A stretch of DNA of 64,000 nt. It comes from Antedon bifida. Lineage: Eukaryota > Echinodermata > Crinoidea > Comatulida > Antedonidae. Location of the stretch: positions 25,611,001-25,675,000 of the forward strand of contig OY727095.1 of the NCBI GenBank assembly GCA_963402885.1, read 5' to 3'. The translations under genes were made by a program, and so were the position numbers. Positions 16,663-41,330 of this stretch are shown one piece after another. The notes under the pieces are model-generated. The model had not been told where the DNA came from. It was given only the letters and a program-made list of their open reading frames with translations, and searched no databases. How positions within the stretch are numbered: the stretch's first letter is position 1; each line of letters starts with the position of its first letter.

Positions 16663-18682
16663 CTAGATTTGAACTCGTCACTACGGACGAGTTAGGTTAT
16701 CCGCAGCGCAAACGCCACGTGCACGTCATACGTTAGAATATTACGCGCAGAAAAACGATCATGCCATTGGAAAAATGTTAGTGCGCTCTCTATTTTGTGT
16801 CACGTCTAAGTATATACAGTACACTATATACTGTATACGTACTACATACAGTGCAGTATAGGTGAAAATAAGTGACCAAAGTTTTTGACGCTTTTGCACA
16901 TGATGACGTCATAACAATTTTAAAAATTGTAAATCATGCGAAAAATAATTGATTGACCTAGACCCCATTTACACTTTCGTTTGGGTCCAGGGCCGGTCCT
17001 GGGCCGGTTGCAAAATATTTACTTTTTAGGCCGGCCCAGAGCGTTTACACTACCGACGCAGATTACTGGTCGTAAATAATTTTATCGGAAGTACCATTGC
17101 ATGCTGGGATACGAAGTACAGTTTGTTTACATTTTTCTCGCTCGATGTCAATTCAACTTTCCGCGCGAACCGACCATTTTATATTTATACTGTTGTTGTT
17201 TTTTGTCCCGTCCCGTTAAAAAACAAAATGAACCCCACTGTTTTATATATATGGCTGTATTTTATGTATATGCGAAACAAGCGGAGGAATACTTTATTGA
17301 AAGAAGTCACAGATGAGGATAATGAAGAGGAGGTTCATTTTACAAAATATCAAGATCGTGTTCCCGAGCAACCCAAGTACCTCCTCGTATGTCCAATTGG
17401 AACCACGATTTTCAGACATCTTATAAAAATTGGTACAAATAAATTTAACTACGGAATATAAATGATGAAGAAAACAAATTGTCGCGCGAAAAAGAAGGTA
17501 TGTACCAGAATGTCGGATCGTCATAACAACCACCTCATAAAAAGGTCAAACGTTGTTCACGGTTCACTGCGTAAGCCGGCCCAAAACGTAAAAGCCGCTC
17601 CTGAACCTACCTGGAGAGGTGGCCCAGATCTGCGTCCGGCCCAGGGCCGGCCTAACTTTTTGGAGTATTTACACTTATCAATTGCCGACCCAGGGCCGAC
17701 CCAGGGCCGGCCTAAATCGTAAGTGTAAATGGGGTCCTAGACAATATAAAAAAATGGAGGGAAATGGAATATGGATAAGTGGAGATGCGCTCTATTTAAT
17801 GTGATGAGCTATGACGAAAGATACAAAAATCCTATATTTTATATTCGAGTGGCCATACGATGACGTCATAATGTCCGTTTAGCCATATTGATTCATGATT
17901 CGATATTTACAACTCATCTACTTCCAGAATATGTAATTTTAAAAAAAGTTCACCAAGTAGTTTAAAATCTATGACTGTTTAAAAAAAGGCATAATTTTGA
18001 CGAATTTTTGAATATTTTCATCAAAAACGCGCGCAAATTGTCCAATTCGACGTGCTCGTATGACGTTAAATTATGTCGGAATTGTTTAAAAGTTGGTAAA
18101 ATTACTAGAAAAGGCTGAAAAAACTAAAATCACGCAAAAAAATCTGTTTTTAACGCTACGTGCGCACCGCGCGCGTAATTTTTTGCGCGCACGTGGGAAT
18201 TTTTGACATGCTTAAAATGACATGAAACGCGTAGAAAGTTGATTAGAAATTGATTTTTCGCATTTTGAAATTTTAAACGCGCGTGCGCACGTAACTTTCT
18301 ATAAAACATGCCATTTTTAATCCATAGAAAGTTTGCCCTTGACATGACTTAAATTTTCACCTAGTGTCAATACAAAATGACTTTTGGTTTTTAATCTATG
18401 ATCAATCATTGAAATTCATAAAATCGCGCGTAAGTCACGTTGCGCAACTCTAAAATCATAAAACAAAGTGTCTTGCACATCTACAGTTAGAGGTCAATCT
18501 TCTGACAAAGTTATATAATCTTATGTTAGCAAGAATTAGAGATATGCTGCCAACAAAATTCTGGGAAAGAAAGAAGAATATAGAAAAAAAAAAAAAAAAA
18601 GAAAAAAAAAGATCCTGACAATAACAAGGGGTTATCCGCCAAGTGCGGATAACCAATTATCCGCCAAGTGCGGATAACCAAT
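16663..18682 (-). mobile_element. HINE copy, A' end type, split by a MITE
   Basis: On the minus strand the 3' end is at 16663 (CTAG then T), preceded by a hairpin with stem GAACTCGTC and by GCGGATAACC. The 5' end is the hairpin GGTTATCCGC/GCGGATAACC at about 18634-18655, with a second similar hairpin after it. The body has poly-A (poly-T on the sense strand), a GAAAGAAAGAAGAA tract and TGACGTCA sites at about 16903 and 17860. A 776-bp MITE (16961-17736) interrupts it; without that the unit is about 1.2 kb. Confidence 0.7.
16961..17736. mobile_element. 776-bp MITE with CTA target duplication
   Basis: GACCCCATTTACACTT at 16961-16976 is repeated inverted at 17721-17736. CTA flanks it on both sides (16958-16960 and 17737-17739). 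Intact HINE copies read GATTGACCTAGACA at this spot (for example near 22360), which is the empty site with a single CTA. The subterminal regions are rich in GGGCCGGCC-type repeats. A 3-bp duplication fits PIF/Harbinger-like elements, but CTA is only a near match to their usual target. No transposase was seen. Confidence 0.85.
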
Positions 18683-18689
18683 AAAACAA

Positions 18690-19070
18690 ATTTGTAAATG
18701 ACTTAATCACAGAGAGTGACTGAAAACAGAGGCAATAAAATATTTTAAAAAGACAATTTCTAAATGAATTCCCTAATACAATCATCAATAAAACTTTCCT
18801 TTAGCTGGTGTTGATTTTTTATTTATTATATAAAGCTATTGGTGTTTCTCCATTAGTTGGACCTTTTACTACTTAGCGGCGGATTGTTCTACATTAACGT
18901 TTTTTTCTCCGACATTAGAGGTTCAAACATGCATTCTTCTTTTTCATTTTAAAGAACGAAAGTTTTAAAAATGAACTTCTCTGGACTAACTAGTAATCTG
19001 TACTAAAAAGAAATCAATATGGTAATGGTAATACATTAATAGATTGTTACAAATTTTTATTTTTGTTCAG
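18690..19070. other. Unique intron sequence before IMP3 exon C
   Basis: AT-rich, no repeat ends recognised. It leads into a pyrimidine tract and TTGTTCAG acceptor. Confidence 0.5.
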
Positions 19071-19143
19071 GAATATGGAAGATTTTATCACATGGACAGA
19101 CACATCTAAAATTAAGAAACATGTAATGATGTACAATGAAAAG
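19071..19143 (+). CDS. IMP3: IMP3, internal exon C
   Basis: This is a 73-nt exon between a TTTTTGTTCAG acceptor and a GTAAGG donor. It completes the split Arg codon from exon B and encodes [18 protein letters not shown] and MMYNEK. This matches the conserved C-terminal segment of IMP3, in which MEDFxTWxDxSKIKxHV is nearly invariant. It ends on a complete Lys codon (phase 0), which matches the start of exon D 23,333 bp further on. The exon is a small island between HINE copies. Confidence 0.93.
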
Positions 19144-19199
19144 GTAAGGACATAATAGATAGAAAAACGATTATACCAATGTGACTGAAGAAAAAAAAA

Positions 19200-20212
19200 T
19201 ATTAGTGTGCCCTCTATTTTGTGTCTAAGTATATACATTATACACTATATACTGTATACATACAGAATAGGTGAAAATAACGGGACCCGCCTTTTATTCC
19301 AATTTTTAACATGATGACGTCATCAAAATGAAACATGTAGATAGCAATTTTGGAAGGGAATTATCTGAGCAACAACATATCAACGTGTTGAAGAAATATA
19401 CGTAGAATATGAAAGCACGTTCTTGTAAATGTCATGAACTATGATGCAAAATATGAAAATATGACTTTTATAATTGAACTGGCCATATGATGACGTTACC
19501 ATTCAACAGTTATTCACGCTTTTGCACATGATGATGTCATCAAAATTTTTAAGACAGTAAATCATGCGAAAGATAATTGATTAATATATCAAAATATGGG
19601 GAAAATGGAATACGGATAATTAAATGTGATGAGCTATGACGAAAGAGACAAAAATCCTATATTTTATATTCGAGTGGCCATACGATGACGTCACAATGTC
19701 CAGTTAGCCATATTGATGCATGATCGATATCTACAACTCATCAACTTCCAGAATATGTAATAAAAATAAACTTCACCGTTTAGTTTAGAAACTATGACTG
19801 TTTAGGCATAATTTTGACAAAAACATTTGCACGCACATGGATATTTTTACATGCTTAAAATGACATGAAACGCGTAGAAATTGATTTTTCACATTCTAAA
19901 ATTTTAATTGCACACTTAACTTTCTGTGAAACATGACACTATGTCGGTCTGTTGGTCAGTAAACACTAACTTGAGCACGCGACTGCAGCCATGTATATGG
20001 TCTTGTTTTTCTACAGAAAGTTAATACATGATATAAATTACACTTTTGCTAAGTTTCAATTTAAATTGTATGGTTTCCGATCATGTTATGTCATATAACA
20101 AAGTTTCTTGCACATCTATAGATAGAGATTAATCTGACAAAGTTATACAATCTTATGTAATATAATTAGAGATATGCTGCAAACAAAATTCGTGGAAAGA
20201 AAAAAGATAAAA
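19200..20212 (-). mobile_element. HINE copy lacking its 3' end
   Basis: From GTGCCCTCTATTTTGTGTC onward it follows the other minus-strand units: the ACACTATATACTGTATAC palindromic tract, ATGATGACGTCATC (about 19312), TGGCCATATGATGACG, AGTGGCCATACGATGACG and the final GAAAGAAAAAAGAT tract. It lacks the CTCGTC hairpin and CTAG at its 3' (left) side. Confidence 0.65.
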
Positions 20213-21685
20213 CTAGACATGTAACTCGTCACTTCGACAAGTTAGTTATTCGCACCACACAAACGCCACGTGCACGTCATACGTTGACATTTTGCACACA
20301 GAATAAGGTTATGGCATTATGACCTGAACTGAAGAATATGATATGCTGTTTAGTGCTGAATTCTGTCAATTTTTTGTCATATAGTATATACAGTGCAAAC
20401 GGTATAATCTGTATACATATTACATACAGTGTAGAATAGGTGAAATTACGGGACCAGCTATTTATTCCAATTTTTAACATGGCGACGGTATCAAAATGAA
20501 ACACTAAGATAGCAATTTCGGAAGGAAATTATCTCAGCAACAACATATTAACGTGTAGAAGAAATTTGAATACGTAAAATGTAGATGCGCGCTCTTTTAA
20601 ATGTGATGAACTATGACGCAAAATATGAAAATACGACTTTTTATATTCAACTGGCCATATGATGACGTCACATCTGATTGGCAAAATGTTCACATGAATT
20701 CGTATCTACAATCCAATAGCTTCCAGAAAACGTTTTAATCATGATTATCACTTTATTCTGATGAGCTATAACCGATTGAAATTTACTGTAAAGATGAAAA
20801 TAAGTGACCCACGTTAAAATATTTTTAACTCATGCGAAAAATAGTCCATTGACCTAGAAAATATCAAAATCGGGGTGAAAACGGTAAACGGATAAGTGGA
20901 GATGCGCTCTATTAAATGTGATGCGCTATGACGAAAGCTACAAAAATCCTATATTTTATATTTGGGTGGCCATACGATGACGTCACAATGTCCTGTTAGC
21001 CATATTAATGCATGATTCCATATCTACAACTTATCATCTTCCTGGATATGTAATTAAAAAAAAGTTCACCTCGTAGTTTAGAATCTATGATTGTTTAAAA
21101 AATTTTTGAACTTTTTCATTAAAAACGCACATAAATTATCCAATTCAACGTGCCTGTATGACGTAATTTTAAGTCAAAATTGTTTAAAAGTTGGTAAAAT
21201 TACTATAAAAGGCTGGAAAAACATAAATCACAAAAAAAAAATTGTTTTCAACGCTACGTTCGCACCATGCGCGTACAAAAATGCGCCCGCGTGGGAATTT
21301 TTTACATGCTCAAAATAACATGAAACACGTAGAAAGTTGATTAGAAATTGATTTTTCGCATTATGAAATTGTAAACGTGCGTGCGCGCGTAACTTCGTGT
21401 GAAACATGCCATTTTTTCTCCACAGTCAGCTAGCGCAAGATATAAATTAAACTTTTGTTAAGTTTCAATTTACGCTGTTATATGGTTTTCGATATATATT
21501 AAAAACGCGAAATTCATAAAAACACGCGTAAGTCACGTTGCGCATTTCTGACGTAATTCACAATAGCAGGTGCACAACTTCACGTGAATGCCCACATGTT
21601 GACAAAGTTATAAAATGTTATGTTTACACGTTTTTGAGATATGCGTGACACAAAAATGACAGAAAGAAAGAAGAATACAGAAAAA
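20213..21685 (-). mobile_element. HINE unit, A end type
   Basis: The 3' end is at 20213 on the minus strand: CTAG, then ACATG, then a hairpin AACTTGTCG/TGACGAGTT with small mutations, then a mutated GCGAATAACTAA. It abuts the next unit with no 5' hairpin between, a head-to-tail junction at 21680-21686. TGACGTCA sites lie at about 20663 and 20978. Unit length is 1,473 bp. Confidence 0.75.
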
Positions 21686-23269
21686 CTAGATTTGAACTCG
21701 TCACTTTGACGAGTTCGGGTTATCCGCGCAAACGCAACATGCACATACGTTTAAAATATATGAACGCCAACAATTATTATGCCATCCTATGACATGAATT
21801 AAATATGTTTACAGTGCTGAATTGTACCTATTTTGTAGCATACAGCATATTACAGTATTTACAGAATACATTGTATGTTATATACAGTGCAGCATAGACG
21901 AAATTACGAGACCCATCTTTTAAATCCAATTATTAACACGATGACGTCATCAAATTGACATATAAAGATAACAATTTTTGAAGATAATTATCTAAATAAT
22001 TACATTAATATAAATTTGAAGAATTTTGAGCACGTAAAAGTGAGATGCGCTCTCGTTTAAATGCAATGAACTTTTACGCAAGAGATGAAAATATGACTTT
22101 TTGAATTCAACTGCCCATATGATGACGTCACAACATCTGATTGGCAAAATATTCACATGAATTTGTATCTACAATCCAATAGCTTCCAGAAAACGTTTTA
22201 ATCATGATTATCACTTTTTATTCTGACGAGTTAAAACAGATTGACATTTACTGTAAAGATGAAAATAGGTGACCCACGTTATTTACATTTTTAGACATGA
22301 TGACGTCATAAAAATTAAAATATTTTTAACTCATGTGAAAGATAGTTGATTGACCTAGACAGTATTAAAATATATGAGGAAATGGAATACGTATAAGTGA
22401 GATGCGCTCTATTTAATGTAATGAGCAATAATGAAATAGTCAAAAATCCAATATTTTACATTCGTGTGGCCATACGATGACGTCATAACATCCGAGGGGT
22501 AAAGATTCTGCATGAATTCATATCTACAACATATCTGCTTCTATATTAAATAAAAAAAATTGGGGGTAACGGTTGATCCTGAGGAGCTATAATAGATTCA
22601 AAATAGGCATAATTTTGACAATATTTTGTCACTTTTGCAACTAAAACGCGCCCAAATGGTCTAAATCAACGTGTTTGTTTGACGTCATTTTAATTTGAAA
22701 TGATGTCAATCTTATTTTAAATGACTAGGAAAGGCTGTAAAATCATAAATCAAGAGAAAAACACATGATTTTCATGCTCCGTGCGCACCTTACGCATAAA
22801 ATTTTTCGTGCACGTTGGAATTTTTGACATGCTTAAAATGTCATGATCAGCGTAGAAAGTTGATTAGAAATTAATTTTGCGCATTTTAAAATTTTAAATG
22901 CGCGTGCGCGCGTAACTTTTTGTGAAACATGCCATTTTTAATCCATAGAAAGTTTGCCTTTGATATAATCTAAATTTTCACCAAGTGTCAATACAAAATG
23001 ACTTTTGGTTTATAATCTATGACCAATCATTGAAATTCATAAAATTGCGCGTAACTTACGCTGCGCGACTCTAACGTCATTTAAAATATGGAGGTGCACA
23101 ACTTCGGGTAAATGTCCATATAATGACAAAGTTATACAAAAGATATATTCACAAGCAATAGGGGATATGCTGCTCACAAAAATCCGGGAAAGAAAGAAGA
23201 ATAAAGATGAAAAAAAAAAGATTTTTACAATCACAAGGGTTATCCGCAACTTCAAAGTTGCGGATAACC
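21686..23269 (-). mobile_element. HINE unit, A' end type, with 5' hairpin
   Basis: The 3' end on the minus strand reads GCGGATAACCC, then the 10-bp stem GAACTCGTCA/TGACGAGTTC with loop AAG, then AAAT-CTAG. Its 5' end is the hairpin GGTTATCCGCAACTT/AAGTTGCGGATAACC (23238-23269). The 5' stem and the 3' flank share GGATAACCC. TGACGTCA or close variants lie near 21943, 22123, 22302, 22478 and 22681. Confidence 0.8.
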
Positions 23270-23299
23270 CAAAAAAAAAAAAAAAGATGATGAAACAGG

Positions 23300-23402
23300 A
23301 CAGTTACAAGGCGTTATCCGCTGAATGCGGATAACTAAAAAGTAATAATAAAATAAAAACAATAACAAGGGGTAATCCGCGTGTGGAATAAGTGTGGATA
23401 AC
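23300..23402 (-). repeat. Extra HINE 5' hairpin modules
   Basis: Two further hairpins of the same design (GTTATCCGC/GCGGATAAC near 23315-23335, and a decayed one near 23371-23402) are separated by A-rich spacers with AACAGGACAGTTACAAGG. They continue the 5' side of the unit before them as a ladder of about 70-bp modules. Confidence 0.65.
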
Positions 23403-23404
23403 CA

Positions 23405-23995
23405 ACAAAACAATGTAATGGCTTTTCTTATGTACGCCAAAAATATTGCTTTCAGGGTAATGAAAAGTTACTCAATAGATTTAATTATTTGTAAACTAAA
23501 TGAATATTAATTCTCCTGTAATGATGTAAAAACTTTACAACAATTGGTACTAATCATAAGAACGTAAAGTATATATATATATATTATATTATTATATATA
23601 TTATCTGAACGTTACACACAGGAGGAAACCGTTAATATGGGTCACTGAAACAGTCTCTACACGAACGTACCAAGAGACCAAAAGCATAGTTTATCAAATG
23701 GGTGACAGTGAGCGGTGCTTTAACATTTGTATCACAATATATCATGACAACAGCATCTTGTTAATTTTGGAACAAAATGATCAAATAACAACTTTCGTAG
23801 CCTACTTATATATCGGTCGTAGTAGATACCATTTATAATTATAAACAGAGCAAGCAGCAGAAATAATCAATAATATAAGCATTAAAGGCGTGTCCCTGGT
23901 ACCAGGCCTCCTATATTAACATTGAATCGCACCTAAATTTAATTAAGTGATTAATAAATAGCATAAATAATTAGTTAAATTACTAAAACAAATTG
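23405..23995. other. Intron sequence with a TA microsatellite
   Basis: A run of TATATATATATA with ATTAT variants occupies 23569-23604. No other structure recognised. Confidence 0.5.
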
Positions 23996-23999
23996 TATT

Positions 24000-24300
24000 T
24001 CACATAAAGTAAAGGCCTTTATAATTGATTAGTTGAATATCTAAAACAAATAAATTGTAGTTCACGATTCAGTTGAATCACTAAAATCACATTGTAGTTC
24101 ACGTAAAGTAGAGGCCTTCAATAATAGTTAAATTACTAAAACAAACTGTAGTTCGCGTAAAGTAAATGCCTTTAATCAATATAATTGATTAGTTGCATAT
24201 CTAAAACAAATTAATTGCAGTAGTTCACGATCAGTTGAATCACTAAAATCACAATGTAGTTTACCTAAAAGTAAAGGCCTTCAATAAACTAAATTCAAAT
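24000..24300 (+). repeat. Short tandem repeat array
   Basis: Repeated phrases TAGTTGAATATCTAAAACAA, TTGTAGTTCACG and GTAAAGTAGAGGCCTT recur in order, in units of about 60 bp grouped into higher units of about 180 bp. Copies are diverged. Confidence 0.55.
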
Positions 24301-24572
24301 TGTAATTAGGACATAATGTAAAAGCCTGCCATTTCAACCTCCCTATTTCATAATTCAAATTATATCAAGAGTTATTCATTTTGCCATGTATTTGTATTTT
24401 CTGGACTTATCGACAAATAAAAATATTGAATTTCGCCACCAATGGCCATTTTGCGGGAAGTCACAGGACCCAGAAGCCAGTTAGCACTACAGTGCGAGTG
24501 TGTGAAAATTACCCTATGATATCCACAAATTTCGATAGGAAACGCTAAATTGTGTCGTTGTAAAATACAAAA

Positions 24573-24728
24573 ATGGAACAATAGCGTAATACTGAAAACT
24601 AATGTTATCAAATCTATGTTTCGCGATACATCTGAGATAGATAATGTAGGTATCCAAGGCGGAGATTTATCCCAAAGTTTTTCCATTGTGCTCTCCTATG
24701 TCAGAATTAACCATAATTTATATATAGA
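24573..24728 (+). repeat. Direct repeat, copy 1
   Basis: It shares ACATCTGAGATAGATAA, GGTATCCAAGGCGGAGATTT and ATGTCAGAATTAACCATAA with 25945-26068 in the same order and orientation, 1.35 kb apart. Copy 1 ends next to a hairpin, CTAGAGGG...CCCCTCTAG (24729-24766), that copy 2 lacks. Confidence 0.65.
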
Positions 24729-24766: not shown

Positions 24767-24769
24767 AAG

Positions 24770-25940: not shown

Positions 25941-25944
25941 AATA

Positions 25945-26068: not shown

Positions 26069-26069
26069 A

Positions 26070-26640: not shown

Positions 26641-26649
26641 ATGATGCAA

Positions 26650-27958
26650 ATTAGCTTAAATATGCAAATTAGGGTGAGATTACAGGGTTACCATATCTCA
26701 AAAACTATTAGTCCGAGAGAGTTGATTTTTTCACTGATTTATTCAAAATGTTTATATTTATATTTACTCTAATGAAACATTTTACGAAAAAAATAACCGT
26801 AAGTACAACATTTGACTTTCGACCCCGTTTCTCAATGTTTTCATACACAATTTGACTAAAATGTCTGTAGAGACTTTATTTTGCCCTCAAATGACCCAGA
26901 CATAGGTTCCTAATAGCCAGCATAGGATCACTTTGTAATTCCCAAAATCACACCTTTGTCACACACCTCGAAAGTATGCAAATTAGTAGTACAATTTAAA
27001 TAAAATATGCAAATAAGAGGGAAAATTACAGTTGTCCTATATCTCGAAAACCACTAATGCTGAGATGAAACATTTTACAAAAAATTGACCGAAAGTATGA
27101 CATTTGACCCTCGACCCCATTTTTCAATATTGCATATATTATAATGAAACTAAAATGTCTGTAGAGACTTTATTTTGCCCTCAAATGACTCGGATACAGG
27201 TTTCTACTAATAGCCAACATAGGACTGTTTAGTGTTTAGTAAATCTCAAAATCACACCTGTATCACTCACCTTCAAAGTATGCAAATTATTAGTACAAGT
27301 TACATGAAATATGCAAATTTTGGGTTGCACTTACAGGTTCCTATATATCAAAAACCACTATGGCTAGAGAGTTGATTTTTTCCAAAACTTGTTCAGAATG
27401 TAAATATTTATATTTGCTCTAATGAAACATTTTACGAAAAAGTGACCGGAAATACAACAATTGACCCTCAACCCCATTTATCAATGTTTGCATACATAAT
27501 GCGACTAAAATGTCTGTAGAGACTTTGTTTTGGACTCAAATAACTCGGATACAGGTTTCCTATAGTCGGCATAGGACCGCTTTGTAATTCCCAAAATCAT
27601 GCCTTCGTCATGCACCTCGAAATTATGCAAATAAGGGGGTGAAATTACAGTCTTCCCATATCTCGAAAAGCATTAATGCTAGAGAGTTGATTTTTTCAAA
27701 GCCTTATTCAGAATGTACATATTTTTATTTGTTCTAATAAAACATTTTACGAAAAAATTTGACCCTCAACCCTATTTCTCAATATTTGCATATAATGTAA
27801 CTAAAATGTATGTACAGACTTTGTTTTGGCCTCAAATGACGTGGATACAGGTTTTATATAGCCAGTATAGGACCGTAGTAATTCCAAAAGTCAAGCACCT
27901 CGAAAGTATGAAAATTAGTAGTATGTTATATGAAATATGCAAATTACAGTGAATTGTC
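26650..27958 (+). repeat. Tandem array of four units of about 300-350 bp
   Basis: Units start at ATGCAAATTAG-like phrases near 26660, 27008, 27311, 27626 and 27938. Each runs through a TTACAG phrase, CATATCTCGAAAA, GAGAGTTGATTTTTTC, CTAATGAAACATTTTACG, TTTGACCCTCGACCCC and AAAATGTCTGTAGAGACTTT. The part around TCTAATGAAACATTTT and the following CCG-AAA resembles the sub-repeats in the arms of the element at 54376-57630, so the two arrays appear related. Confidence 0.75.
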
Positions 27959-29008: not shown

Positions 29009-29678
29009 AGTTATCCGCATTGAGCGGATAACTCCTTGTAACTGTCCTGTTTCATCATCTTTTTAGTTATCCGCACTTGGCGGATAACTCCTTGTTATTG
29101 TATGGGATCAATATTTTTTTCTGTATTATTCTTCTTTCTCGCTATTTTTGTGCAGCGCGTTTCTCTAAAATGTGTAAACATAACATGGGATCATCATTTT
29201 TTTTTTTTTTCTGTATTATTCTTATTTCTTTCCTTCCATTTTTGTGTAGAGCGTTTCTCTAACATGTGTAAACATAACATTTCATAACTTTGACAACATG
29301 TGGGCATTTACGTGAAGTTGTGCACCTCCTATTTTTGAATGACGTCAGAGTTGCGCAACGTGACTTACGCGCGATTTTATGAATTTCGCGTATTTAACAT
29401 AGGTCAAAAACCAAATAACATTTTAAATTGAAACTTTGCAGAAGTTTAATTTATATCATGCACTAACTTTCTGTGGAAAAAAAATTGAGAGTTTTACACA
29501 AATTTACGTGCGCACGCGCATTTAAAATTTGAAAATGGGAAAAAACAATTTCTAATTAACTTTCTACGCGTTTCATGTCATTTTGAGCATGTCATGCAAT
29601 ATTCCAACGTATATGACATGCACGTGGCGTTTGTCGTGCGGATAACTAACTCGTCAAAGTGACGAGTTACATGTCTAG
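29009..29678 (+). mobile_element. Short HINE copy, A end type
   Basis: Two 5' hairpins AGTTATCCGC/GCGGATAACT (29009-29033 and 29065-29089) precede a short body: GTGTAGAGCGTTTCTC, ATGACGTCAGAGTTGCGC and CATGTCATTTTGAGC. The 3' end has GCGGATAACTAA, stem AACTCGTCA/TGACGAGTT with loop AAG, ACATGT and CTAG (29675-29678). The module with paired TGACGTCATCRTATGGCC sites is missing, as in the 460-bp unit at 32956-33415. Confidence 0.75.
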
Positions 29679-29690
29679 TTTTTCTTTATT

Positions 29691-31418
29691 AGTTATCCGC
29701 ACTTGGCGGATAACTCCTTGTGATTGTATGGGATCATCATTTTTTTTTTCTGTATTATTAGTTATCCGCATTCAGCGGATAACTCCTTGTAACTGTCCTG
29801 TTTCATCATCTTTTTTTTTTTTTTTTTTGGTTATCCGCAACTTAGTTGCGGATAACCCATGTGATTGTAAATATCTTTTTTTTCATCTTCATCTTCTTTG
29901 TTATTCTTCTTTCTTTCCCGGATTTTTGTGCGTTGCATATCCCCTATTGCTTGTGAATATATCTTTTGTATAACTTTGTCATTATATGGACATTTACCTG
30001 AAGTTGTGCACCTCCATATTTTTAATGACGTTAGAGTCGCGCAGCGTAAGTTACGCGCGATTTTATGAATTTCAATGATTGATCATAGATTATAAACCAA
30101 AAGTCATTCTGTATTGACACTTGGTAAAAATTTAAGTCATATCAAGGGCAAACTTTCTATGGATTAAAAATGGCATGTTTCACAAGAAGTTACGCGCGCA
30201 CGCGCATTTAAAATTTCAAAATGCGCAAAAATAATTTCTAATCAACTTTCTACACTGATCATGACATTTTGAACATGTCAAAAATTCCCTCGCGCGCGAA
30301 AAATTTTACGCGTAAGGTACGCACGGAGCATGAAAATCATGTGTTTTTCTCTTGAATTATGATTTTACAGCCTTTCCTAGTGATTAAAAAAAATATTGAC
30401 ATAATTTCAAATTAAAATGACGTCATACGAACACGTTGATTTATACCATTTGCGCGCGTTTTAGTTGAAAATGTTACAAAATATTGTCAAAATTATGCCT
30501 ATTTTGAATCTATTATTGCTCCTCAGAATCAATGGTGACCCCCAATTTTTTTAACTTATTATGTAAGAAGATAAATTGTAGATATGAATTCATGCAGAAT
30601 ATTTACCTCTCGGATGTTATGACGTCATCGTATGGCCACACGAAGGTAAAATATAGGATGTTTGTCTCTTTCGTTTTTGCTCATCACATTAAATAGAGCG
30701 CATCTCGCTTATACGTATTCCATTTCCTCAGATATTTTAATACTGTCTAGGTCAATCAACTATCTTTCCCATGAGTTAAAAATATTTTAATTTTTATGAC
30801 GTCATCGTGTCTAAAAATGTAAATAACGTGGGTCACCTTATTTCATCTTTACAGTAAATTTCAATCTGTTATAGCTCGTCAGAATAAAAAGTGATAATCA
30901 TGAATAAAACGTTTTCTAGAAGCTACTGGATTGTAGATACGAATTCATGTGAACATTTTGCCAATCAGATGTTGTGACGTCATCATATGGCCAGTTGAAT
31001 AAAAAAAGTCGTATTTCCATCTCTTTCTTAAAAGTTCATTGCGTTTAAACGAGAGCGCATCTCACTTTTACGTGGCCAAAATTCATCAAATTTGTATTAA
31101 TGTAATTATTTAGATAATTATCTTCTAAAATTTTTATCTTTAAATGTCAATTTGATGACTTCATCGTGTTAATAATTGGATTTAAAAGATGGGTCTCGTA
31201 ATTTCGTCTATGCTACACTGTATATAACATATACAGTTTATTCTGTAAATACTGTAATATGCTGTATGCTACATAATAGGTACAATTCAGCACTGTAAAC
31301 ATATTTATTTCATGTTATAGGATGGCATAATAATTGTCGAGGTTCATATAGTTAAGTATGTGCATGTTGCATTTGCGCGGATAACCCGAACTCGTCAAAG
31401 TGACGAGTTCAAATCTAG
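29691..31418 (+). mobile_element. HINE unit, A' end type, with three 5' hairpins
   Basis: Two AGTTATCCGC hairpins (29691-29715, 29760-29784) are followed by GGTTATCCGCAAC/GTTGCGGATAACC (29829-29857), the one next to the body. The 3' end reads GCGGATAACCC, stem GAACTCGTCA/TGACGAGTTC, AAAT, CTAG (31415-31418). The body has TGACGTCA sites near 30419, 30620, 30797, 30974 and 31160 (mutated). This is the plus-strand equivalent of the unit at 21686-23269. Confidence 0.8.
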
Positions 31419-32955
31419 TTTTTCTGTATTCTTCTTTCTTTCTGTCATTTTTGTGCAGAGCGTATCTCTAAAACGTGTTAACATAACATTTCATAACTTT
31501 GTCAACATATGAGCGTTCACGTGAAGTTGTGCACCTGCTATTGTAAATGACGTCAGAGTTGCGTAACATGACTTACGCGCGTTTTTACGAATTTCGCGTA
31601 TTTAACGTAGATCAAAAACCATATAACAATTTAAATTGAAACTTAACAAAAGTTTGTTATATCTTGCGCTAACTGACTGTGAAAAAAAAATAGCATGTTT
31701 CACACGAAGTTACGCGCGCACGCGGGTTTAAAATTTTATAATGCGAAAAATTAATTTCTAATCAACTTTCTACGCGTTTCATGTCATTTTGAGCATGTAA
31801 AAAATTCCCACGTGCGCGCATTTTTTTACGCGCGTGGTGCGCACGTAGCGTTGAAAACAATTTTTTTCTCATGATTTATGTTTTTCCATCCTTTTCTAGT
31901 AATTTTACCAACTTTTGAACAATTTCGACTTAAAATTACGTCATACGGGCACTTCGAATTGGATAATTAACGTGCATTTTTGATGAAAAAGTTCAAAAAT
32001 TCCTTAAAATTTGTCAAAATTATACCTTTTTTAAAACAGTCGTAGTTTCTAAACTAAACGGTAAAAGTTATTTTTATTACGTATTCTGGAAGATGATGAG
32101 TTGTAGATATCGTATCATGCATCAATATTGCTAACAGGACATTGTGACGTCATCGTATGGCCATGCGAATATAAAATATAGGATTTTTGTATCTTTCGTC
32201 ATAGAGTATCACATTTAATAGAGCGCATCTCCACTTATCCGTTTTTCATTTTAACCCAGATTTTGATATTGTCTAGGTCAATCAACTACCTTTCGCATGG
32301 GTTAAAAATATTTCAATTTTTTTGACGTCATCATGTCTAAAAATGTAAATAACGTGGGTCACTTATTTTCATCTTTACAGTAACTTTCAATCTGTTATAG
32401 CTCATCAGAATAAAAAGCGGTAATCATGATTAAAACGTTTTCTGGAAGCTATTGGATTGTAGATACGAATTCATGTAAACATTTTGCCAATCGGATGTTG
32501 TGACGTCATCATATGGCCAGTTGAATAAAAAAAGTCGTATTTTCATATTTTGCGTAATAGTTCATCACATTTAAAAGGGCGCGCATCTATATTTTACGTA
32601 TTCAAATTTCTTCTACACGGTAATATGTTGTTGCTGAGATAATATCCTTCCGAAATTATTATTTTAGTGTTTCATTTTGATACCGTCGCCATGTTAAAAA
32701 ATGGAATAAATGGCGGGTCCCGTAATTTCACCTATTCTACACTGTATGTAATATGTATACAGATTATACTGTTTATACTGTATATACTATATGACACAAA
32801 ATTGACAGAATTCAGCACTAACAACATATCATATTCTTCAGATCAGGTCATAATGCCATAATCTTTTTCTGTGTGCAAAATTCTAACGTATGACGTGCAC
32901 ATGGCGTTTGTCGTGCGGATAACTAACTCGTCAAAGTGACGAGTTTCATGTCTAG
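31419..32955 (+). mobile_element. HINE unit, A end type, tail-joined
   Basis: It begins directly after the previous CTAG with a pyrimidine tract (TTCTTCTTTCTTTC) and no 5' hairpin. TGACGTCA sites lie near 31550, 32141, 32324 and 32500. The 3' end is GCGGATAACTAA, stem AACTCGTCA/TGACGAGTT, TCATGT, CTAG (32952-32955). Confidence 0.8.
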
Positions 32956-33415
32956 TTCTTATTTCTTTCCTTCCATTTTTGTGTAGAGCATTTCTCTAAC
33001 ATGTGTAAACATAACATTTCATAACTTTGACAACATGTGGGCATTTACGTGAAGTTGTGCACCTCCTATTTTTGAATGACGTCAGAGTTGCGCAACGTGA
33101 CTTACGCGCGATTTTATGAATTTCGCGTATTTAACATAGGTCAAAAACCAAATAACATTTTAAATTGAAACTTTGCAGAAGTTTAATTTATATCATGCGC
33201 TAACTTTCTGTGGAAAAAAAATTGTGAATTTTACACAAATTTACGTGCGCACGCGCATTTAAAATTTGAAAATGCGAAAAAACAATTTCTAATCAACTTT
33301 CTACGCGTTTCATGTCATTTTGAGCATGTCATGCAATATTCCAACGTATATGACGTGCACGTGGCGTTTGTCGTGCGGATAACTAACTCGTCAAAGTGAC
33401 GAGTTACATGTCTAG
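32956..33415 (+). mobile_element. 460-bp internally deleted HINE unit
   Basis: It has the same 5' pyrimidine start and 3' hairpin as its neighbours but only about 460 bp of body, almost the same as 29218-29678. A short version therefore exists at two places in the block. Confidence 0.8.
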
Positions 33416-34615
33416 TATTATTCTTCTTTCTTTCTCCCCCATTTTTGTGTCTCGCGTATCTCAAGAACTTGTAAACATACCATTTCATAACTTTGTCAAC
33501 ATATGGACATTTACGTGAAGTTGTGCACCTCCTATTTTTGAATGACGTCAGAGTTGCGCAACGTGACTTACGTGCGATTTTATGATTTTTTATGATTGAT
33601 CATAGACTAAAAACCAAGCATAATTTTGTTTTGACACTTTGTGAAAATTTAAGTCATATCAAGGGCAAACTTTTTGTGGAATAAAAATGTCATGTTTTAG
33701 GCGCGCATGCGCATTTCTCCTCTATTTTTGTGTCTCGCGTTTCTCAAAAACGTGTAAACATAGTTCAAAAATTCTTCAAAATTATACCTTTTTTTAAAGA
33801 TGTATTGTCCCCCAAAAACATAAAAAATGAAGATTAATTAAATCAGACTTTGAATATGTCATTTTGTAGTTTTAATAAAGTTAATCACTTCCGTAGAAAA
33901 AAAAATGACAAAAAATAATGTTTTCACTTATGAAATGACAAAATAAATGGTTAAATTTCACCAAAAACCATTGGCTGGCAGCCAATTTGACCATTTTTTG
34001 CTTTAAATTACAGTTTTTTCAGGTAAATACATTTTTTTTTCGATCCAATTTTTGGTCAAAGTGGATAATTATTATGTGCCATTAAAATGGCATATTCAAC
34101 AAAAAAATTATAAAAAAATATTTTTTCAGGGGGACAATACATCTTTAAACAATCATAGATTCTAAACTACGAGGTAAACTTTTTTTTACTTACATATTCG
34201 GGAAGGTGATGAGTTGTAGATATCGGATCATTAATCAATATTGCTAACCGGACATTGTGACGTCATTGTATGGCCACATGAATGTAAAATATATGATTTT
34301 TGTCTCTTTCGTTATTGCTCATCACATTAAATGGAGCGCATCATGCTTATCTGTATTCCTTTTTCTCCGAGATTTTAATATTGTCTAGGTCAATCAACTA
34401 TTATATGCATGAGTTAAAAATATTTTAATTTTTATGACGTCATCATGCCTAAAAATTTAAATTACTTAAATTTAGCACTAACAACATATCATATTCTTCA
34501 GTTCAGGTCATAATGCCATAATCTTTTTCTGTGTGCAACATTCCAACGTATGACGTGCACGTGGCGTTTGTCGAGCGGATAACTAACTCGTCAAAGTGAC
34601 GAGTTTCATGTCTAG
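33416..34615 (+). mobile_element. HINE unit, A end type, carrying a MITE
   Basis: It starts ATTATTCTTCTTTCTTTC and ends with stem AACTCGTCA/TGACGAGTT, TCATGT and CTAG (34612-34615). A 347-bp TTAA MITE splits it at 33798-34144. TGACGTCA sites lie near 33545, 34258 and 34436. Part of the body is missing on each side compared with full units. Confidence 0.75.
33798..34144. mobile_element. TTAA MITE, copy 1
   Basis: AGATGTATTGTCCCCC and its inverted copy GGGGGACAATACATCT bound 347 bp, with TTAA on both sides (33794-33797, 34145-34148). The uninterrupted HINE at about 40420 reads TTTTTTTAAACAATCATAG here, a single TTAA. TTAA duplication is shared by piggyBac- and Kolobok-type elements; there is no coding frame to decide between them. 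Confidence 0.85.
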
Positions 34616-34616
34616 T

Positions 34617-34700
34617 TATTATTGCTATCATTGTACTTTGAATTGTAGTGGCTAATTTATTATTATTGCTATCATTGTACTTTGAATTGTAGTTGCTAAT
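34617..34700 (+). repeat. Tandem duplication of a 44-bp unit
   Basis: TTATTATTGCTATCATTG followed by TACTTTGAATTGTAG and GCTAATT is present twice in a row between two HINE copies. Confidence 0.75.
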
Positions 34701-34701
34701 T

Positions 34702-36488
34702 AGTTATCTGCTTGGTAGAGCGGATAACTCCTTGTTATTGTATGGGATCAATCAGTTTTTTTCTGTATTATTAGTTATCCGCTTAGTAGCGGATAACTGC
34801 TTGTAATCGTCCTGTTACTTTTTTTTTTTTTAGTTATCCTCATCCGCTTAGTAGCGGATAACTGCTTGTAATCGTCCTGTTACTTTTTTTTTTTTTAGGT
34901 GATCATTTAGAATAAAATGATCACCTATTGTTATTGTATAAAATCTTTATTATTATTTTTTTTTTTATTATTTTTTTTCTTTTTATTGTTTCTGTACACT
35001 ATTTTGTGTAACAATTATCTCAAAAAGTTTAATGTCAATGATTACAAAAATTTCAGAATATCTTTCAAATAATACAACTTAATCCTAATAAGCTTTCCAG
35101 CGTGATCACTCATCCGTGACGACATTTATACGCCATTTTGCGAAATCACATTATCAATCATATCTCCATAATTCATTATCACATATTAATGAAATTCACT
35201 ACACGTAAACTTCAGATCAAGGGTAAAAATATTAGCAAATAAAAACGCACGCACACGTAGGTTCATGCGCGTGATATCGCGCGTTAAAAATTTAAAACGC
35301 TCAAAATTAAGTTTTGATCAATTTAGAGCATGAATTAGGCCATTTGCGTGTTTCAAAAAATTACTGCGCAAAAATGCGTTTTTGCGCGCGCGATACTTAA
35401 AAAGCGTAAAAAATATGAATTTTTTTTACAAATCTCATTCTACTCACCATCCTTAGTACATTCACCAAATTTGAGTCAGTTCCGACTTAAAATAACGCTA
35501 TACGAGCACGTTAAAAATGACAAAATGCGCACATTTATTTTACAAAAATTCTGAAAATGGTGAAAAATAGGTCTTTTTTAAAATGAAAATAATTCTTCAG
35601 AATGCAAGATGACCCCTGATTTTTTTAACTTATTCTGGAAGTCATTGAGTTGTAGATATGAATTCATGTACACATTTTACGTACAAAATGTTTTGACGTC
35701 ATCAAATGGCCACTTGAATTTAAAAATTAGGATTTGTTATCTTTTTGTGTAGATTATCACATTCAACAGAGCGCATCTTGGTTATGTGTGCTCGAATTTC
35801 GCACAACTTTCAGTATGTGCTTGCTTAATTAATTATCTTTATCATGAGTTGACACTATCTTCATTTTAATGACGTCATCACGCGTAAAAACTTGAATAAC
35901 GTAGGCCGTGTAATTTCACCTTCGCAGTAAATTTGAATATCTTACAGCTCTTCAGAATTGAAGGTTACCTTGATGATTATAATTTATTGTGAAAGCTGAT
36001 GAAATGTAGATATTAATTCATATAAAAATTAAGCCTATCGGATGTTGTGACGTTAACATATGGCCAGTTGAAGTGAAAAAGTAGTTTTTTCATATTTTTC
36101 GTCAAAGTTATACACAATTCAAAGAGCGCGCACAGCGCTTCTACGTGCCAAATTTTTTTTCCAAATCTTATATTTTTTTGCTCAATTAATTATCTTTCGA
36201 AATTGTCATCTTAAAGTTTAGTTTGATAACGTCATCATGCCAAAAAATTAGAACATGTGTCCCGTAATTTCACCTATGCTACACTGTATATAGATATACA
36301 GTATATACTGTACATATTGTATATGGCATATAGGCACAACTCAGCACTATAAGCATATAATAGGATGGCATACATCAACATTTTCCGATCGTATGTTAAC
36401 GTACGTGCATGTTTAAAAAAAAATTAATTTCAGTAAAATGATAAAAATGATCACCTATAATTCGTCAAAGTGACGAATTAAATTCTAG
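34702..36488 (+). mobile_element. HINE unit, B end type, with four 5' hairpins
   Basis: Three hairpins of the AGTTATC...GATAACT type (from 34702, 34773 and 34832) are followed by AGGTGATCATTT/AAATGATCACCT (34897-34926), next to the body. The 3' end has AAAATGATCACCTAT, stem AATTCGTCA/TGACGAATT with loop AAG, AAATT and CTAG (36485-36488). The body contains GAGCGCATCTTGG and TGACGTCATCAAATGGCC. The change from GGATAAC to GATCACC is therefore made at both ends. Confidence 0.82.
35640..36290 (+). repeat. Two diverged 355-bp modules inside a HINE unit
   Basis: Module 1 (from about 35640) and module 2 (from about 35996) share the order GTAGATAT-AATTCAT, TTGACGT at 35693/36047, TGGCCACTTGAA or TGGCCAGTTGAA, a CACATTCA-GAGCGC block, TTAATTATCTTT, ACGTCATCA at 35872/36229 and GTGT(C)CCGTAATTTCACC. 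The paired sites are 354 and 357 bp apart. The same two-module body is seen in every long unit of both HINE blocks. Confidence 0.75.
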
Positions 36489-38005
36489 TTCTTTTTATTG
36501 TTTCTGTACACTATTTTGTGTAACAGATATCTCAAAAAGTTTAATGTCAATGATTACCAAAATTTCAGAATATCTTTTAAATAATATAACTTAATCCTAA
36601 TAAGCTTTCCAGCGTGATCACTCATCCGTGACGACATTTATACGCCATTTTGCGAAATCACATTATCAATCATATCTCCATAATTCATTATCACATATTA
36701 ATGAAATTCACTACACGTAAACTTCAGATCAAGGGTAAAAATATTAGCAAATAAAAACGCACGCGTACGTAGGGTCATGCGCGTGAAATCGCGCGTTAAA
36801 AATTTAAAACGCTCAAAATTAAGTTTTGATCAATTTAGAGCATGAATTAGGCCATTTGCATGTTTCAAAAAATTACTGCGCAAAAATGCGTTTTTGCGCG
36901 CGCGATACTTAAAAAGCGTAAAAAATATGAATTTTTTTTACAAATCTCATTCTACTCACCATCCTTAGTACATTCACCAAATTTGAGTCAGTTCCGACTT
37001 AAAATAACGCTATACGAGCACGTTAAAAATGACAAAATGCGCACATTAATTTTACAAAAGTTCTGAAAATGGTGAAAAATAGGGCTTTTTTAAAATGAAA
37101 ATAATTCTTCAGAATGCAAGATGACCCCCGATTTTTTTAACTTATTCTGGAAGCCATTGAGTTGTAGATATGAATTCATGTACACATTTTACGTACAAAA
37201 TGTTTTGACGTCATCAAATGGCCACTTGAATTTAAAAATTAGGATTTGTTATCTTTTTGTGTAGATTATCACATTCAACAGAGCGCATCTTGATTATGTG
37301 TGCTCGAATTTCGCACAAATTTCAGTATGTGCTTGCTTAATTAATTATCTTTATCATGAGTTGACACTATTTTTATTTTAATGACGTCATCACGCGTACA
37401 AACTTGAATAACGTAGGCCGTGTAATTTCACCTTCGCAGTAAATTTGAATATCTTACAGCTCTTCAGAATTGAAGGTTACCTTGATGATTATAATTTATT
37501 ATGAAAGCTGATGAAATGTAGATATTAATTCATATAAAAATTAAGCCTATCGGATGTTGTGACGTTAACATATGGCCAGTTGAAGTGAAAAAGTAGTTTT
37601 TTCATAATTTTCGTCAAAGTTATACACAATTCAAAGAGCGCGCACAGCGCTTCTACGTGCCAATTTTTTTTCCAAATCTTATATTTTTTTGCTCAATTAA
37701 TTATCTTTCGAAATTGTCATCTTAAAGTTTAGTTTGATAACGTCATCATGCCAAAAAATTAGAACATGTGTGTCCCGTAATTTCACCTATGCTACACTGT
37801 ATATAGATATACAGTACTGTATATACTGTACATATTGTATATGGCATATAGGCACAACTCAGCACTATAAGCATATAATAGGATGACATACATCAACATT
37901 TTCCGATCGTATGTTAACGTACGTGCATGTTTAAAAAAAATTAATTTCAGTAAAATGATAAAAATGATCACCTATAATTCGTCAAAGTGACGAATTAAAT
38001 TCTAG
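36489..38005 (+). mobile_element. HINE unit, B end type, near-identical to its left neighbour
   Basis: It starts TTCTTTTTATTG right after the previous CTAG and follows 34976-36488 with only scattered single-base changes. The period is 1,517 bp. The 3' end is identical: GATCACCTAT, stem AATTCGTCA/TGACGAATT, AAATT, CTAG (38002-38005). No 5' hairpin is present. This looks like the most recent duplication in the array. Confidence 0.82.
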
Positions 38006-39525
38006 TGAGAAATTGTTTTTGTAAAACAAAAAATGTTTCTTCGCAATTTCTTTCTGTACAGATTTTGTGTAACAAATATCTCAAAAAGTTTAATGTCAAT
38101 GATTACCAAAATTTCTGAATGTCTTTCAAATACTTTAACTTAGTCCTAATAAGCTTTTCAGCGTGATCACTCATCCGTGACGTAATTTAGACGCCATTTT
38201 GTGAAATCACATTATCAATCATATCTCCATAATTCATTATCACATATTAATGAAATTCACTACACGTAAACTTTAGGTCAAGGGTAAAAATATTAACAAA
38301 TAAAAACGCGCGCACACGTAGGGTCATGCGCGTGAAATCGCGCGTTAAAAATTTAAAAAGCTCAAAATTAAGTTTTGATTAATTTAGAGCATGAATTAGG
38401 CCATTTGCGTGTTTCAAAAAATTACTGCGCAAAAAAATATTTTGCGCGCGCGATACTTACAAAGCGTAAAAAATGCAATTTTTTTATACAAATCGCATTC
38501 TACTCACGAGCCTTAGTACATTCACCAAATTTGAGTCAGTTCCAACTTAAAATAACGCTATACGAGCAGGTTAAAAATGACAAAATGCGCAAATTAATTG
38601 CATCAAAGTGCTGAAAATGGTGAAAAATAAGGCCTTTTTAAAATGAATATAAATCTTCAGAATGGCAGGTGACCCCTAAATTTTTTAACTTATTCGGGAA
38701 GCCATTGGGTTGTAGATACATATTCATGTACACATTAGACGTACAAAATGGTATGACGTCATCAAATGGCCACTTGAATTTAAAAATTAGTAATTTTTAT
38801 CTTTTTGTGTGGGTTATCACATTCAATAGAGCACAAACGTTTTAGAATGAGCTTGCTGAATTGATTATCTTTCTCATGGGTTGTAAACATTTTTATTTTG
38901 ATGACGTCATCACGCGTAAAAACTTGAATAACCTAGGTCGTGTAATTTTAGCTACACCATACATTTGAATATCTAATAGCTCTTCAGAATTAAAGGTGAC
39001 CTTGAAGATTATAACTTATTATGAAAGCTGTTGAAATGTAGATATGAATTCATATAAAAATTAAGCCTATCGGATGTTGTGATGTTATCATATGGCCAGT
39101 TGAAGTTAAAACATAGTTTTTAGATTTCTTTAGTCGAAGTTATACAAATTTCAATGAGCGCGCATTGCGCTTCTACGTATCAAATTCTCTTCCAATCCTT
39201 ATATTTATTTGCTCAATTCATTATCTTTCGAAATTGTCATCTTCGAGTTTATTTTGATAATTCCATCATACCAACAAATTTGAACATGATGTGGGTCCCA
39301 TAATTTTACCTATGCTACACTGTATATAGATATACAGTATATACTGTACATAATGTATATGGCATATAATAGGCACAGCACTATAGTATAACCGTATAAT
39401 AGGATGGCATACATCAACATTTTCTGATTGTATTTTAACATACGTGCATGTTTAAAAATATTAATGTCAATAAAATGATAAAAATGATCACCTATAATTC
39501 GTCAAAGTGACGAATTAAATTCTAG
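38006..39525 (+). mobile_element. HINE unit, B end type, more diverged
   Basis: It has the same order of landmarks and the same 3' end (CTAG 39522-39525) but more differences and a small loss near 38835. It begins with an extra inverted phrase, AGAAATTGTTTTTGTAAAAC followed by AAAAAATGTTTCT. Length is 1,520 bp. Confidence 0.8.
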
Positions 39526-41330
39526 TTTTTCTTATTTCTTTCTCCCCCATTTTTGTGTCTCACGTATCTCAAAAACTTGTAAACATAACATTTCATAACT
39601 TTGTCAACATATGGGCATTTACGTGAAGTTGTGCACCTCCTATTTTTGAATGACGTCAGAGTTGCGCAACGTGACTTACGTGCGATTTTATGATTTTTTA
39701 TGATTGATCATAGGCTAAAAACCAAGCATAATTTTGTTTTGACACTTTGTGAAAATTTTAGTCATATCAAGGGCAAACTTTTTGTGGATTAAAAATGCCA
39801 TGTTTTACAAGACGTTACGCGCGCACGCGCATTTCTCCTCTATTTTTGTGTCTCGCTTATATCAAAAATGTGTAAACATAACATATCATAACTTTGTCAA
39901 CATATGGGCATTCACGTGAAGTTGTGCACCTACTATTGTGAATGACGTCAGAAATGCGTAACGTGACTTGCGCGTGATTTTATGAATTTCCCGTATTTAA
40001 CATAGATTGAAAACCATATAACAATTTAAGTTGAAACTTAGCAAAAGTTTAATTTATATCTTGCGCTAACTTTTTATGCACTAAAAATGGCATGTTTTAC
40101 ACGAAGTTACGCACGCATGCGCATTTAAAATTCAAAATGCGCAAAATTAATTTCTAATCAACTTTCTACGCTGATCATGACATTTTAAGCATGTCAAAAA
40201 TTCCCACGCGCGCGAACAATTTTACACGCGTGGTCCGCACGTAGCGCTAAAAACATCTTTTTTTGCGTGAATTATGTTTTTCCAGCCTTTTATAGTGATT
40301 TTATCAAATTTTAAAACAATTTCGACTTAAAATTACGTCATACGAGCACGTCGAATTGTACAATTTGTGCGTGTTTTTAATAAAAAAATTCAAAAATTCG
40401 TCAAAATTATGCCTTTTTTTAAACAATCATAGATTCTAAACTACGAGGTAAACTTTTTTTTACTTACATATTCTGAAAGGTGATAAGTTGTAGATATCGG
40501 ATCATTAATCAATATGGCTAACCGGACATTGTGACGTCATCGTATGGCCACACGAATGAAAAATATAGGATTTTTGTCTCTTTCGTTATTGCTCATCATA
40601 TTCAATGGAGCGCATCATGCCTATCTGTATTCCTTTTTCTCCGAGATTTTAATATTGTCTAGGTCAATCAACTATCTTACGCATGAGTTAAAAATATTTT
40701 AATTTTTATGAGTCATCATACCTAAAAATTATAATTAACAGGGTTATTAATTTCATCTTTACAGTAAATTTTAATCTGTTATAGCTCGTAAGAATAAAAA
40801 GTGATAATTATGATTAAAACGTTTTCTGGAAGCTATTGGACTGTAGATACGAATTAATGTGAACATTTTGCCGATCGGATGTTGTGAAGTCATCATATGG
40901 CCAGTTGAATAAAAAAAGTCGTATTTTCATATTTTGCGTCATAGTTCATCACATTTAAACGAGCACGCATCCATATTCTACGTATTCAAATTTCTTCTAC
41001 ACGTTAATATGTTGTTGGTGAGATAATGTCCTTCCGAAATTGCTATCTTAGTGTTTAATTTTAATACCGTCGCCATGTTAAAAATTGGAATAAACGGTGG
41101 GTCCCGTAATTTCACCTATTCTATACTGTATGTAATATGTATACAGATTATACTGTATATACTATATGACACAAAATAGACAGAATTCAGCACTAACAAG
41201 ATATGATATTCTTCAGTTCAGGTCATAATGCCATAATCTTTTTCTGTGTGCAATATTCCAACGTATGACGTGCACGTGGCGTTTGTCGTGCGGATAACTA
41301 ACTCGTCAAAGTGACGAGTTTCATGTCTAG
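39526..41330 (+). mobile_element. HINE unit, A end type, last of the array
   Basis: After the three B units the array returns to an A-type body: GTTGCGCAACGTGAC, CGGACATTGTGACGTCATCG and GTCGCCATGTTAAAA. It ends GCGGATAACTAA, stem AACTCGTCA/TGACGAGTT, TCATGT, CTAG (41327-41330) followed by T. The 5' half holds a partly duplicated start region (39526-39830, then again from about 39835). Confidence 0.8.

Follow-up and report, generated by a model that had tools for sequence, protein, structure and literature searches.

How does a rolling-circle transposon find its own two ends when many related units are crowded into one locus? The choice of start and stop by eukaryotic rolling-circle transposons is poorly understood, and the question is raised by a 64,000-nt stretch of the Antedon bifida genome (contig OY727095.1, our C8, positions 25611001-25675000), here called the window. 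Judging from their sequence, its units look like non-autonomous Helentron/Helitron2 (HINE-type) elements. A sequence-only reading had claimed that their two ends vary together, and the claim was followed beyond the window in the genome (315.6 Mb in 27 contigs). A unit bears the same word at its two ends, and four such words occur (A, G, B and D, the last newly found here); the clusters of units are best read as nested insertions that spell typed brackets. The word agreement is real and well supported; the kind of element is already known.

A unit starts after a T with a word-loop-word' hairpin, followed after 0-3 nt by a constant box, TTGTNANYGT, and by a leader that contains GATC or CATC together with a run of T. 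The body is single-copy and about 1.5 kb long. The 3' part consists of word', 0-2 nt, the hairpin core CGTCA-AAG-TGACG, 4-12 nt, CTAG and a T. Word A reads AGTTATCC at the 5' end and GGATAACT at the 3' end; the corresponding pairs are GGTTATCC and GGATAACC for word G (named A' in the sequence-only reading), GGTTTTCC and GGAAAACC for word D, and GGTGATCA and TGATCACC for word B. Words G, A and D are one base pair apart, and both arms of the 5' hairpin change jointly with the 3' word. Word G has three 3' forms: G1 (hairpin CGTCCRTAGTGACG, window 16663), G2 (window 31418) and G3 (locus L014). A T stands on both flanks in 55 of 55 paired units. Because our first hairpin finder had required the box, the box was retested on hairpins selected by word alone, after dropping 84 matches that either had the opposite orientation (a hairpin matches on each strand) or lacked T-rich sequence in front; it lies behind 73 of 74 hairpins, with all four words, against a random-place rate of 0.0016. 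The predicted hairpins fold far below shuffled sequence (z -4.3 to -8.1 for single ends, -4.3 and -5.2 for two forms of the 3' palindrome). No reading frame above 99 codons between stops was found in four units translated in six frames, and a tandem-repeat scan of the window found no tandem array inside unit bodies. Some word A copies at different places are 99.9% identical, and therefore the family moved recently.

Agreement between ends was counted with a rule blind to the word, in which a 5' end opens a bracket and a 3' end closes the most recently opened 5' end. Ends without a recognised word were excluded before pair counting, and unpaired ends stand outside the pair counts. Typing 3' ends by their tails was tried and rejected, as the tails are mosaic and gave false mismatches; words were used instead. 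In the loci read in sequence, all 38 innermost pairs share the word, as do 14 of 17 outer pairs. In a listing of contig C1 from 0 to 14.17 Mb (C1 is a contig name, unrelated to the end words), 62 of 64 typed innermost pairs agree; across 20,000 shuffles the agreeing pairs averaged 24.3 and never exceeded 39. Of the outer pairs there, 12 of 16 agree. The two sets overlap in loci L005-L024, which are the first hairpin places on contig C1 and a non-random sample, and the sets are thus not independent. Both innermost misfits of the listing (L031 and L023) disappear once G hairpins with ATGTGATTGT, overlooked by the strict pattern, are counted, and one untyped 3' end reads GGATAACT, which is concordant. 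On contig C1 below 14.17 Mb the G1 3' pattern occurs at exactly four places and each closes an open G 5' end, two of them beyond a nested unit; a fifth 5' end of the G1 kind (11657034) stays open.

Genome-wide, the oriented pattern of hairpin plus CTAG was found at 4157 sites (2063 + 2094) and its reversed control at none. Typed by word, these 3' ends comprise 2106 with A or G, 1593 with B and 207 with D, about 94% together, and form G1 adds 609 more. The 5' ends number 2791 for A or G (control 17), 1525 for B (control 0) and 237 for D (control 13). The 5' and 3' totals are near-equal for each word: 1525/1593 for B, 237/207 for D and 2791/2715 (2106 + 609) for A and G together. Individual copies were typed from listings of about the first 100 places per pattern.

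In the window itself, the words, stems and 5' hairpins named in the sequence-only reading were recovered as exact matches at the places given, to within one base. The features are listed here.

29009..29033, plus strand: 5' hairpin, word A, outer bracket closing at 34615
29065..29089, plus strand: 5' hairpin, word A, closing at 29678
29638..29678, plus strand: 3' end, word A with hairpin and CTAG
29691..29715, plus strand: 5' hairpin, word A, closing at 33415
29760..29784, plus strand: 5' hairpin, word A, closing at 32955; an uninterrupted counterpart matches the joined flanks
29829..29857, plus strand: 5' hairpin, word G, closing at 31418; an uninterrupted counterpart matches the joined flanks
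31377..31418, plus strand: 3' end, word G (GGATAACCC) with hairpin and CTAG
32915..32955, plus strand: 3' end, word A
33375..33415, plus strand: 3' end, word A
34575..34615, plus strand: 3' end, word A
34702..34729, plus strand: 5' hairpin, word A with one base changed, closing at 41330
34773..34863, plus strand: two word A 5' hairpins in a 65-bp repeat, 100% matched by TRF
34896..34927, plus strand: 5' hairpin, word B, closing at 36488
36445..36488, plus strand: 3' end, word B (GATCACCTAT) with hairpin and CTAG
37962..38005, plus strand: 3' end, word B, without a remaining B 5' hairpin
39482..39525, plus strand: 3' end, word B, without a remaining B 5' hairpin
41290..41330, plus strand: 3' end, word A
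23370..23404, minus strand: decayed 5' hairpin, word G-like (by eye)
23313..23336, minus strand: 5' hairpin, word A, by nesting closing at 20213
23237..23270, minus strand: 5' hairpin, word G, closing at 21686
21686..21727, minus strand: 3' end, word G
20213..20253, minus strand: 3' end, decayed word A (GCGAATAAC)
18630..18679, minus strand: 5' hairpin, word G, a 25-bp unit in two copies
16663..16704, minus strand: 3' end of form G1, word G, hairpin variant CGTCCGTAGTGACG
59816..59840, minus strand: lone 5' hairpin, word G (GGGTTATCC), with no untaken 3' end found below it in the window

The five units with a body-adjacent 5' hairpin agree with their own 3' end, as had been claimed: 29065/29678 with A, 29829/31418 with G and 34896/36488 with B on the plus strand, and 23270/21686 with G and 18654/16663 (GGTTATCC/GGATAACC) on the minus strand. 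Only such hairpins had been considered before. Under a nested-bracket reading the outer hairpins find partners too (29760/32955, 29691/33415, 29009/34615 and 34702/41330), and the minus-strand outer pair 23336/20213 was matched by eye, its decayed 20213 end not being typed by the script. Ends with word A close at 29678, 32955, 33415, 34615 and 41330, those with G at 31418 and 21686 (minus), and those with B at 36488, 38005 and 39525. The first plus-strand cluster thus spells (A (A A) (A (A (G G) A) A) A), and the second, which is unbalanced, (A (A (A (B B) B) B) A). All three 3' forms that had been described are present, but the count was incomplete: a fourth form, GGATAACCTAACTCGTCCGTAGTGACGAG, lies at 16663 minus and the decayed A at 20213 minus. 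The argument that 3' stems stay paired by compensatory change holds for one inner pair, swapped from C-G to T-A between A and B; the remaining changes are in outer pairs, which leaves that argument thin. In the 16663 form the loop-side pair is lost. Agreement of the word at both ends carried over from the window to the sequence-read loci and the 14-Mb listing. Tandem duplications edge the B cluster, one of 65 bp at 34773-34898 (100%), which copies a word A 5' hairpin, and one of 44 bp at 34616-34701 (97%).

Nesting was also read outside the window. An array of 19 kb spans contig C1:9947-9966 kb. In bracket form it is (B (B B) (D (B (D (A A) D) (A (A A) (D D) A) B) (A A) (A (G G) A) D), and its open B is closed by the next same-strand 3' end, a B at 9946163, giving 12 matched pairs with four words. 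At contig C1:19.291 Mb a stack of six B 5' ends stands opposite six B 3' ends in 1.5-kb steps (19.280-19.292 Mb); the first closer, at 19.288 Mb, lies 3.1 kb away, and therefore one innermost unit there has an unseen type. Three stacked B 5' ends likewise face three B 3' ends at contig C1:20.361-20.366 Mb. Stacked 5' hairpins are spaced 24-52 nt apart (n = 33; one at 84), inside the T-run of the outer leader, and some units sit directly behind a resident CTAG. It is shown in part, then, that clusters grow by new copies in the T-run 24-52 nt behind a 5' hairpin or after CTAG. An uninterrupted counterpart with the flanks joined was found for 16 of 32 nested units, and for 7 of 32 when right flanks were exchanged. 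Loci L031 and L032 (contig C1:10306100-10306450 and 13181150-13181450) have two nested junctions in common and different inner elements. Either the T-runs in question were hit repeatedly, or a composite element bypassed foreign 3' ends and moved whole; since the inner elements differ, independent insertions fit equally.

Bodies do not follow words throughout. When 45 units were aligned (only matched ones of 1150-1900 nt were admitted), words A, G2, D and B form distinct body groups in some segments and are close in others. Bodies of A and G2 are 0.88-0.90 alike in segments 6-7 and 0.64-0.69 in segments 0, 4 and 8, and the B body scores 0.44-0.58 against the rest in segments 0-3, rising to 0.70-0.74 in segments 6-7 with the exception of G1. 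In a single unit, L023L024 minus 6728, the body is 0.88-0.97 alike to D across segments 1-8, whereas the last segment is 0.97 alike to A and 0.69 to D; this unit carries word A at both ends, and its 5' hairpin retains the D/G3 loop with both arms reading word A. Five elements whose 3' hairpin is of the G1 type carry word A beside it; each of them has A as its 5' word too, and they are one lineage with a common leader. Loci L035-L039 are five of the six rows with an A-like word among the 100 G1-pattern matches listed. Word A also occurs with nine leader/tail combinations and one 3' hairpin variant while the word stays fixed. The proposal that bodies have moved between end types is thus supported by a few cases, namely the unit with the D-like body, a single unit read once, and the five elements with the G1 hairpin and word A; in these, bodies appear to switch words, the word then agreeing at both ends. 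At L038, around minus-strand 448-490, a further 3' form (GGATAACCAAACTCGTCCTCAAGTGACGAGTT...CTAG) immediately precedes an A 5' hairpin.

How might the word be read? The reading we favour, with a probability of roughly 0.6, is that these are non-autonomous rolling-circle elements served by one Rep-helicase family that acts on the constant parts, the word being read by base-pairing of the element with itself. One Rep-helicase family would recognise CTAG, the core of the 3' hairpin and the constant box. In the 5' hairpin, the left arm would have two possible partners, the right arm and the same-strand 3' word, and transposition begun at a 5' end would stop at the 3' end bearing the matching word. 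This would account for changes appearing at three places, and for the words rather than the neighbouring sequence being matched. A common Rep could hold what stays the same from word to word: box, hairpin core, CTAG and TT. The word is variable and self-matching at three places, with A, G and D one base pair apart, which suggests reading by pairing. A bolder version, put forward tentatively and in our judgement somewhat unlikely, makes the word a self-pairing address, so that the transposase ignores its letters and the 5' left arm needs only to find its 3' partner. If so, one enzyme could move many mutually insulated element lineages, new addresses would arise through co-ordinated one-base changes at three places, and the address would let an element locate its own 3' end among the interleaved ends of its relatives in a nest.

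Several observations weigh against self-pairing or against typed nesting. A folded mock junction favours two local hairpins over word-to-word pairing. Three of the 17 outer pairs in the sequence-read loci are mismatched, two in the B cluster of the window and one in L019, and 4 of 16 outer pairs disagree in the contig C1 listing before correction. The blind reading slips at the window B cluster and at L019 because 3' ends of a word outnumber its 5' ends there; in the window the B 3' ends at 38005 and 39525 lack a B 5' hairpin, and word-blind reading turns them into A-5'/B-3' pairs. Gain or loss of stacked hairpins by slippage would yield such an unbalanced cluster. In the contig C1 listing 19 of 100 3' ends and 13 of 94 5' ends have no partner. 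The empty-site test of nesting is modest, supportive but not strong alone. No transposase with these ends was found at the three Rep loci examined among 36, so nothing shows one Rep serving all words. Common descent could also keep words identical at both ends. As to originality, pairing of subterminal repeats is already mentioned in the accessible text of PMC4344730.

The sequence-only reading had each word recognised by its own helicase-Rep, that is, as the protein site of one of four transposases, with bodies parasitising the matching one. Words do match at both ends, and Rep genes are many: the PF14214 profile gives 36 matches in the genome, 20 of them in open frames above 2,000 aa without a stop. 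The expected arrangement, a Rep between ends with these words, was absent from all three loci examined among the 36 matches (L025/L026 and those on contigs C12 and C10). The 5' box and the 3' hairpin core are, moreover, identical for all words, and three of the words are one base pair apart, which leaves little for separate proteins to discriminate; we regard this account as unsupported and unlikely. Another account has the words match through descent and copying alone, with no word-specific recognition, every copy receiving both ends from its parent. A joined circle brings the three word copies close together, the two 5' arms and the 3' word falling in a stretch of about 80 nt at the junction, and template switching there would spread a new base to all of them. 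Helitron circles are described in the accessible parts of PMC5148889 and PMC5876387, and A copies up to 99.9% identical show that shared descent accounts for a large part of the agreement. Mosaics between words are seen, however, in bodies, leaders, tails and 3' hairpins while the word agrees at both ends, and free recombination should leave mismatched recombinants, which number none among the 38 innermost sequence-read pairs. Descent as the whole explanation is, to our mind, likewise unlikely.

The clusters might instead be tandem products of rolling-circle replication or unequal exchange, the brackets being coincidental. Tandem Helitron arrays are reported in the accessible text of PMC4067079, units 1 and 2 of the window B cluster are 98% alike, two B ends there have no 5' hairpin, and L019 holds one D unit without its 5' hairpin. 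Tandem copying would not be expected to stack 5' hairpins of different words before 3' ends in mirror order, nor to set six B ends facing six and three facing three on contig C1, and as a general account of the clusters it is improbable. Tandem readthrough is kept only for some same-word runs.

The Rep genes were considered as candidate partners in their own right. A large Helitron family has single open frames of about 3,000 aa with OTU, DUF6570, Rep and PIF1, and may still be active, given the 20 of 36 matches in long stop-free frames. The L025/L026 Rep (contig C8:19811561-19821017) has DUF6570, Rep, PIF1, OTU and a Herpes_teg_N match; no A, G, D or B end was found on the Rep strand within 1.5 kb upstream or 9 kb downstream. 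It was rejected as a partner of word G, as a decayed G end at 19823779 closes the open G 5' ends before the Rep is reached. The contig C12 Rep (16126403-16134758, L027/L028) does have a G 5' hairpin on one side and a G 3' end on the other, but it was rejected as an autonomous partner of word G, being a separate insertion: the window unit 18679-16663 aligns with the body to the left and to the right of 8.35 kb of inserted sequence, which is on the strand opposite to the interrupted G1 element. On its 3' side the C12 Rep element resembles, by eye, a hairpin followed by CTAG/T. Around the contig C10 Rep, such ends were not found in 16 kb.

Other features of the window lie apart from the units. 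A short unit, CCCACAAATGTGAAAACG, and its reverse complement form facing arrays at 45939-46179 and 47102-47317, about 1 kb apart. A frame of 185 aa at 48759-49316 (minus) resembles, as we read it, the gag part of an LTR retroelement. Diverged repeats of about 300 bp (families D16, D18 and D20) occupy 26672-27875; their listed sequences are unrelated to the end words.

Self-pairing and a protein reading of the word can be set against each other with few constructs, as can the insulation of families. The genome offers a natural experiment: its ends run to thousands, its four words include some that a single base pair separates, and bodies and hairpins have been swapped. The typed nests also record the order of family activity.

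Among known systems, the Helitron2/Helentron-like anatomy proposed by the sequence-only reading is supported. The units share with Helentrons and HINEs matching subterminal repeats, a hairpin at the 5' repeat, a 3' palindrome and TT insertion with no target duplication. Central tandem repeats or a microsatellite are absent from the window bodies; the accessible text of PMC4067079 gives such repeats as frequent, not required. With canonical Helitrons (Helitron1) only the CTAG 3' end is common: the units lie between T and T and start with the word, not with 5'-TC between A and T. A Helentron family is defined by an identical subterminal inverted repeat of at least 11 bp (Thomas et al. 2014, PMC4067079, in its accessible part), and therefore agreement of the ends within a family is expected; the end covariation is real but less novel than had been supposed. 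The words here are 10-13 nt long, some (10-11 nt) at or slightly below that length. Near-identical repeats are reported there in Helentron families less than 70% alike, which fits bodies and words evolving apart.

HINE/DINE-1 elements, as far as PMC4067079 is accessible, resemble our units in their subterminal inverted repeats, 5' hairpin, 3' palindrome, TT insertion and lack of genes. The difference is that here several words one base pair apart, one body superfamily and deep typed nests occur in one genome, and typed nests with several words are not described in that text. Cg_HINE of the Pacific oyster (accessible text of PMC7492417) has a 5' subTIR (subterminal inverted repeat) with a complementary IR (inverted repeat) after a gap of 1-12 nt, a palindrome after the 3' subTIR and T-rich/TT targets, with eleven elements in one genome; it carries a microsatellite and satellite-like tandem repeats between its modules, where our units carry one unrepeated body some 1.5 kb long. 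FoHeli Helitrons of Fusarium oxysporum (Helitron2) likewise have asymmetric terminal inverted repeats, hairpins and circular intermediates in the accessible part of PMC5148889, whose authors attribute repeated 5' termini to self-insertion. FoHeli encodes Rep-Hel and has short repeated 5' ends with one 3' end, while here the outer 3' ends are kept and paired by word.

Our favoured reading would have the units work like the IS200/IS605 single-strand transposons of a different host, a likeness that holds only if the pairing model is right and that claims no membership. In IS608 of that family, short element sequences recognise each other by base-pairing beside a protein-held hairpin. The enzyme there is the Y1 TnpA, whereas a Rep-helicase would be expected here. 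No description of typed nests, or of three-place co-change of words one base pair apart, was found in the accessible open-access literature. What is apparently new in comparison with all these systems is that words one base pair apart change together at three places, while the 5' box and 3' core stay constant and bodies move between words. A multi-word code that is independent of body and flanks, together with typed nests, makes a good system for a mechanistic test.

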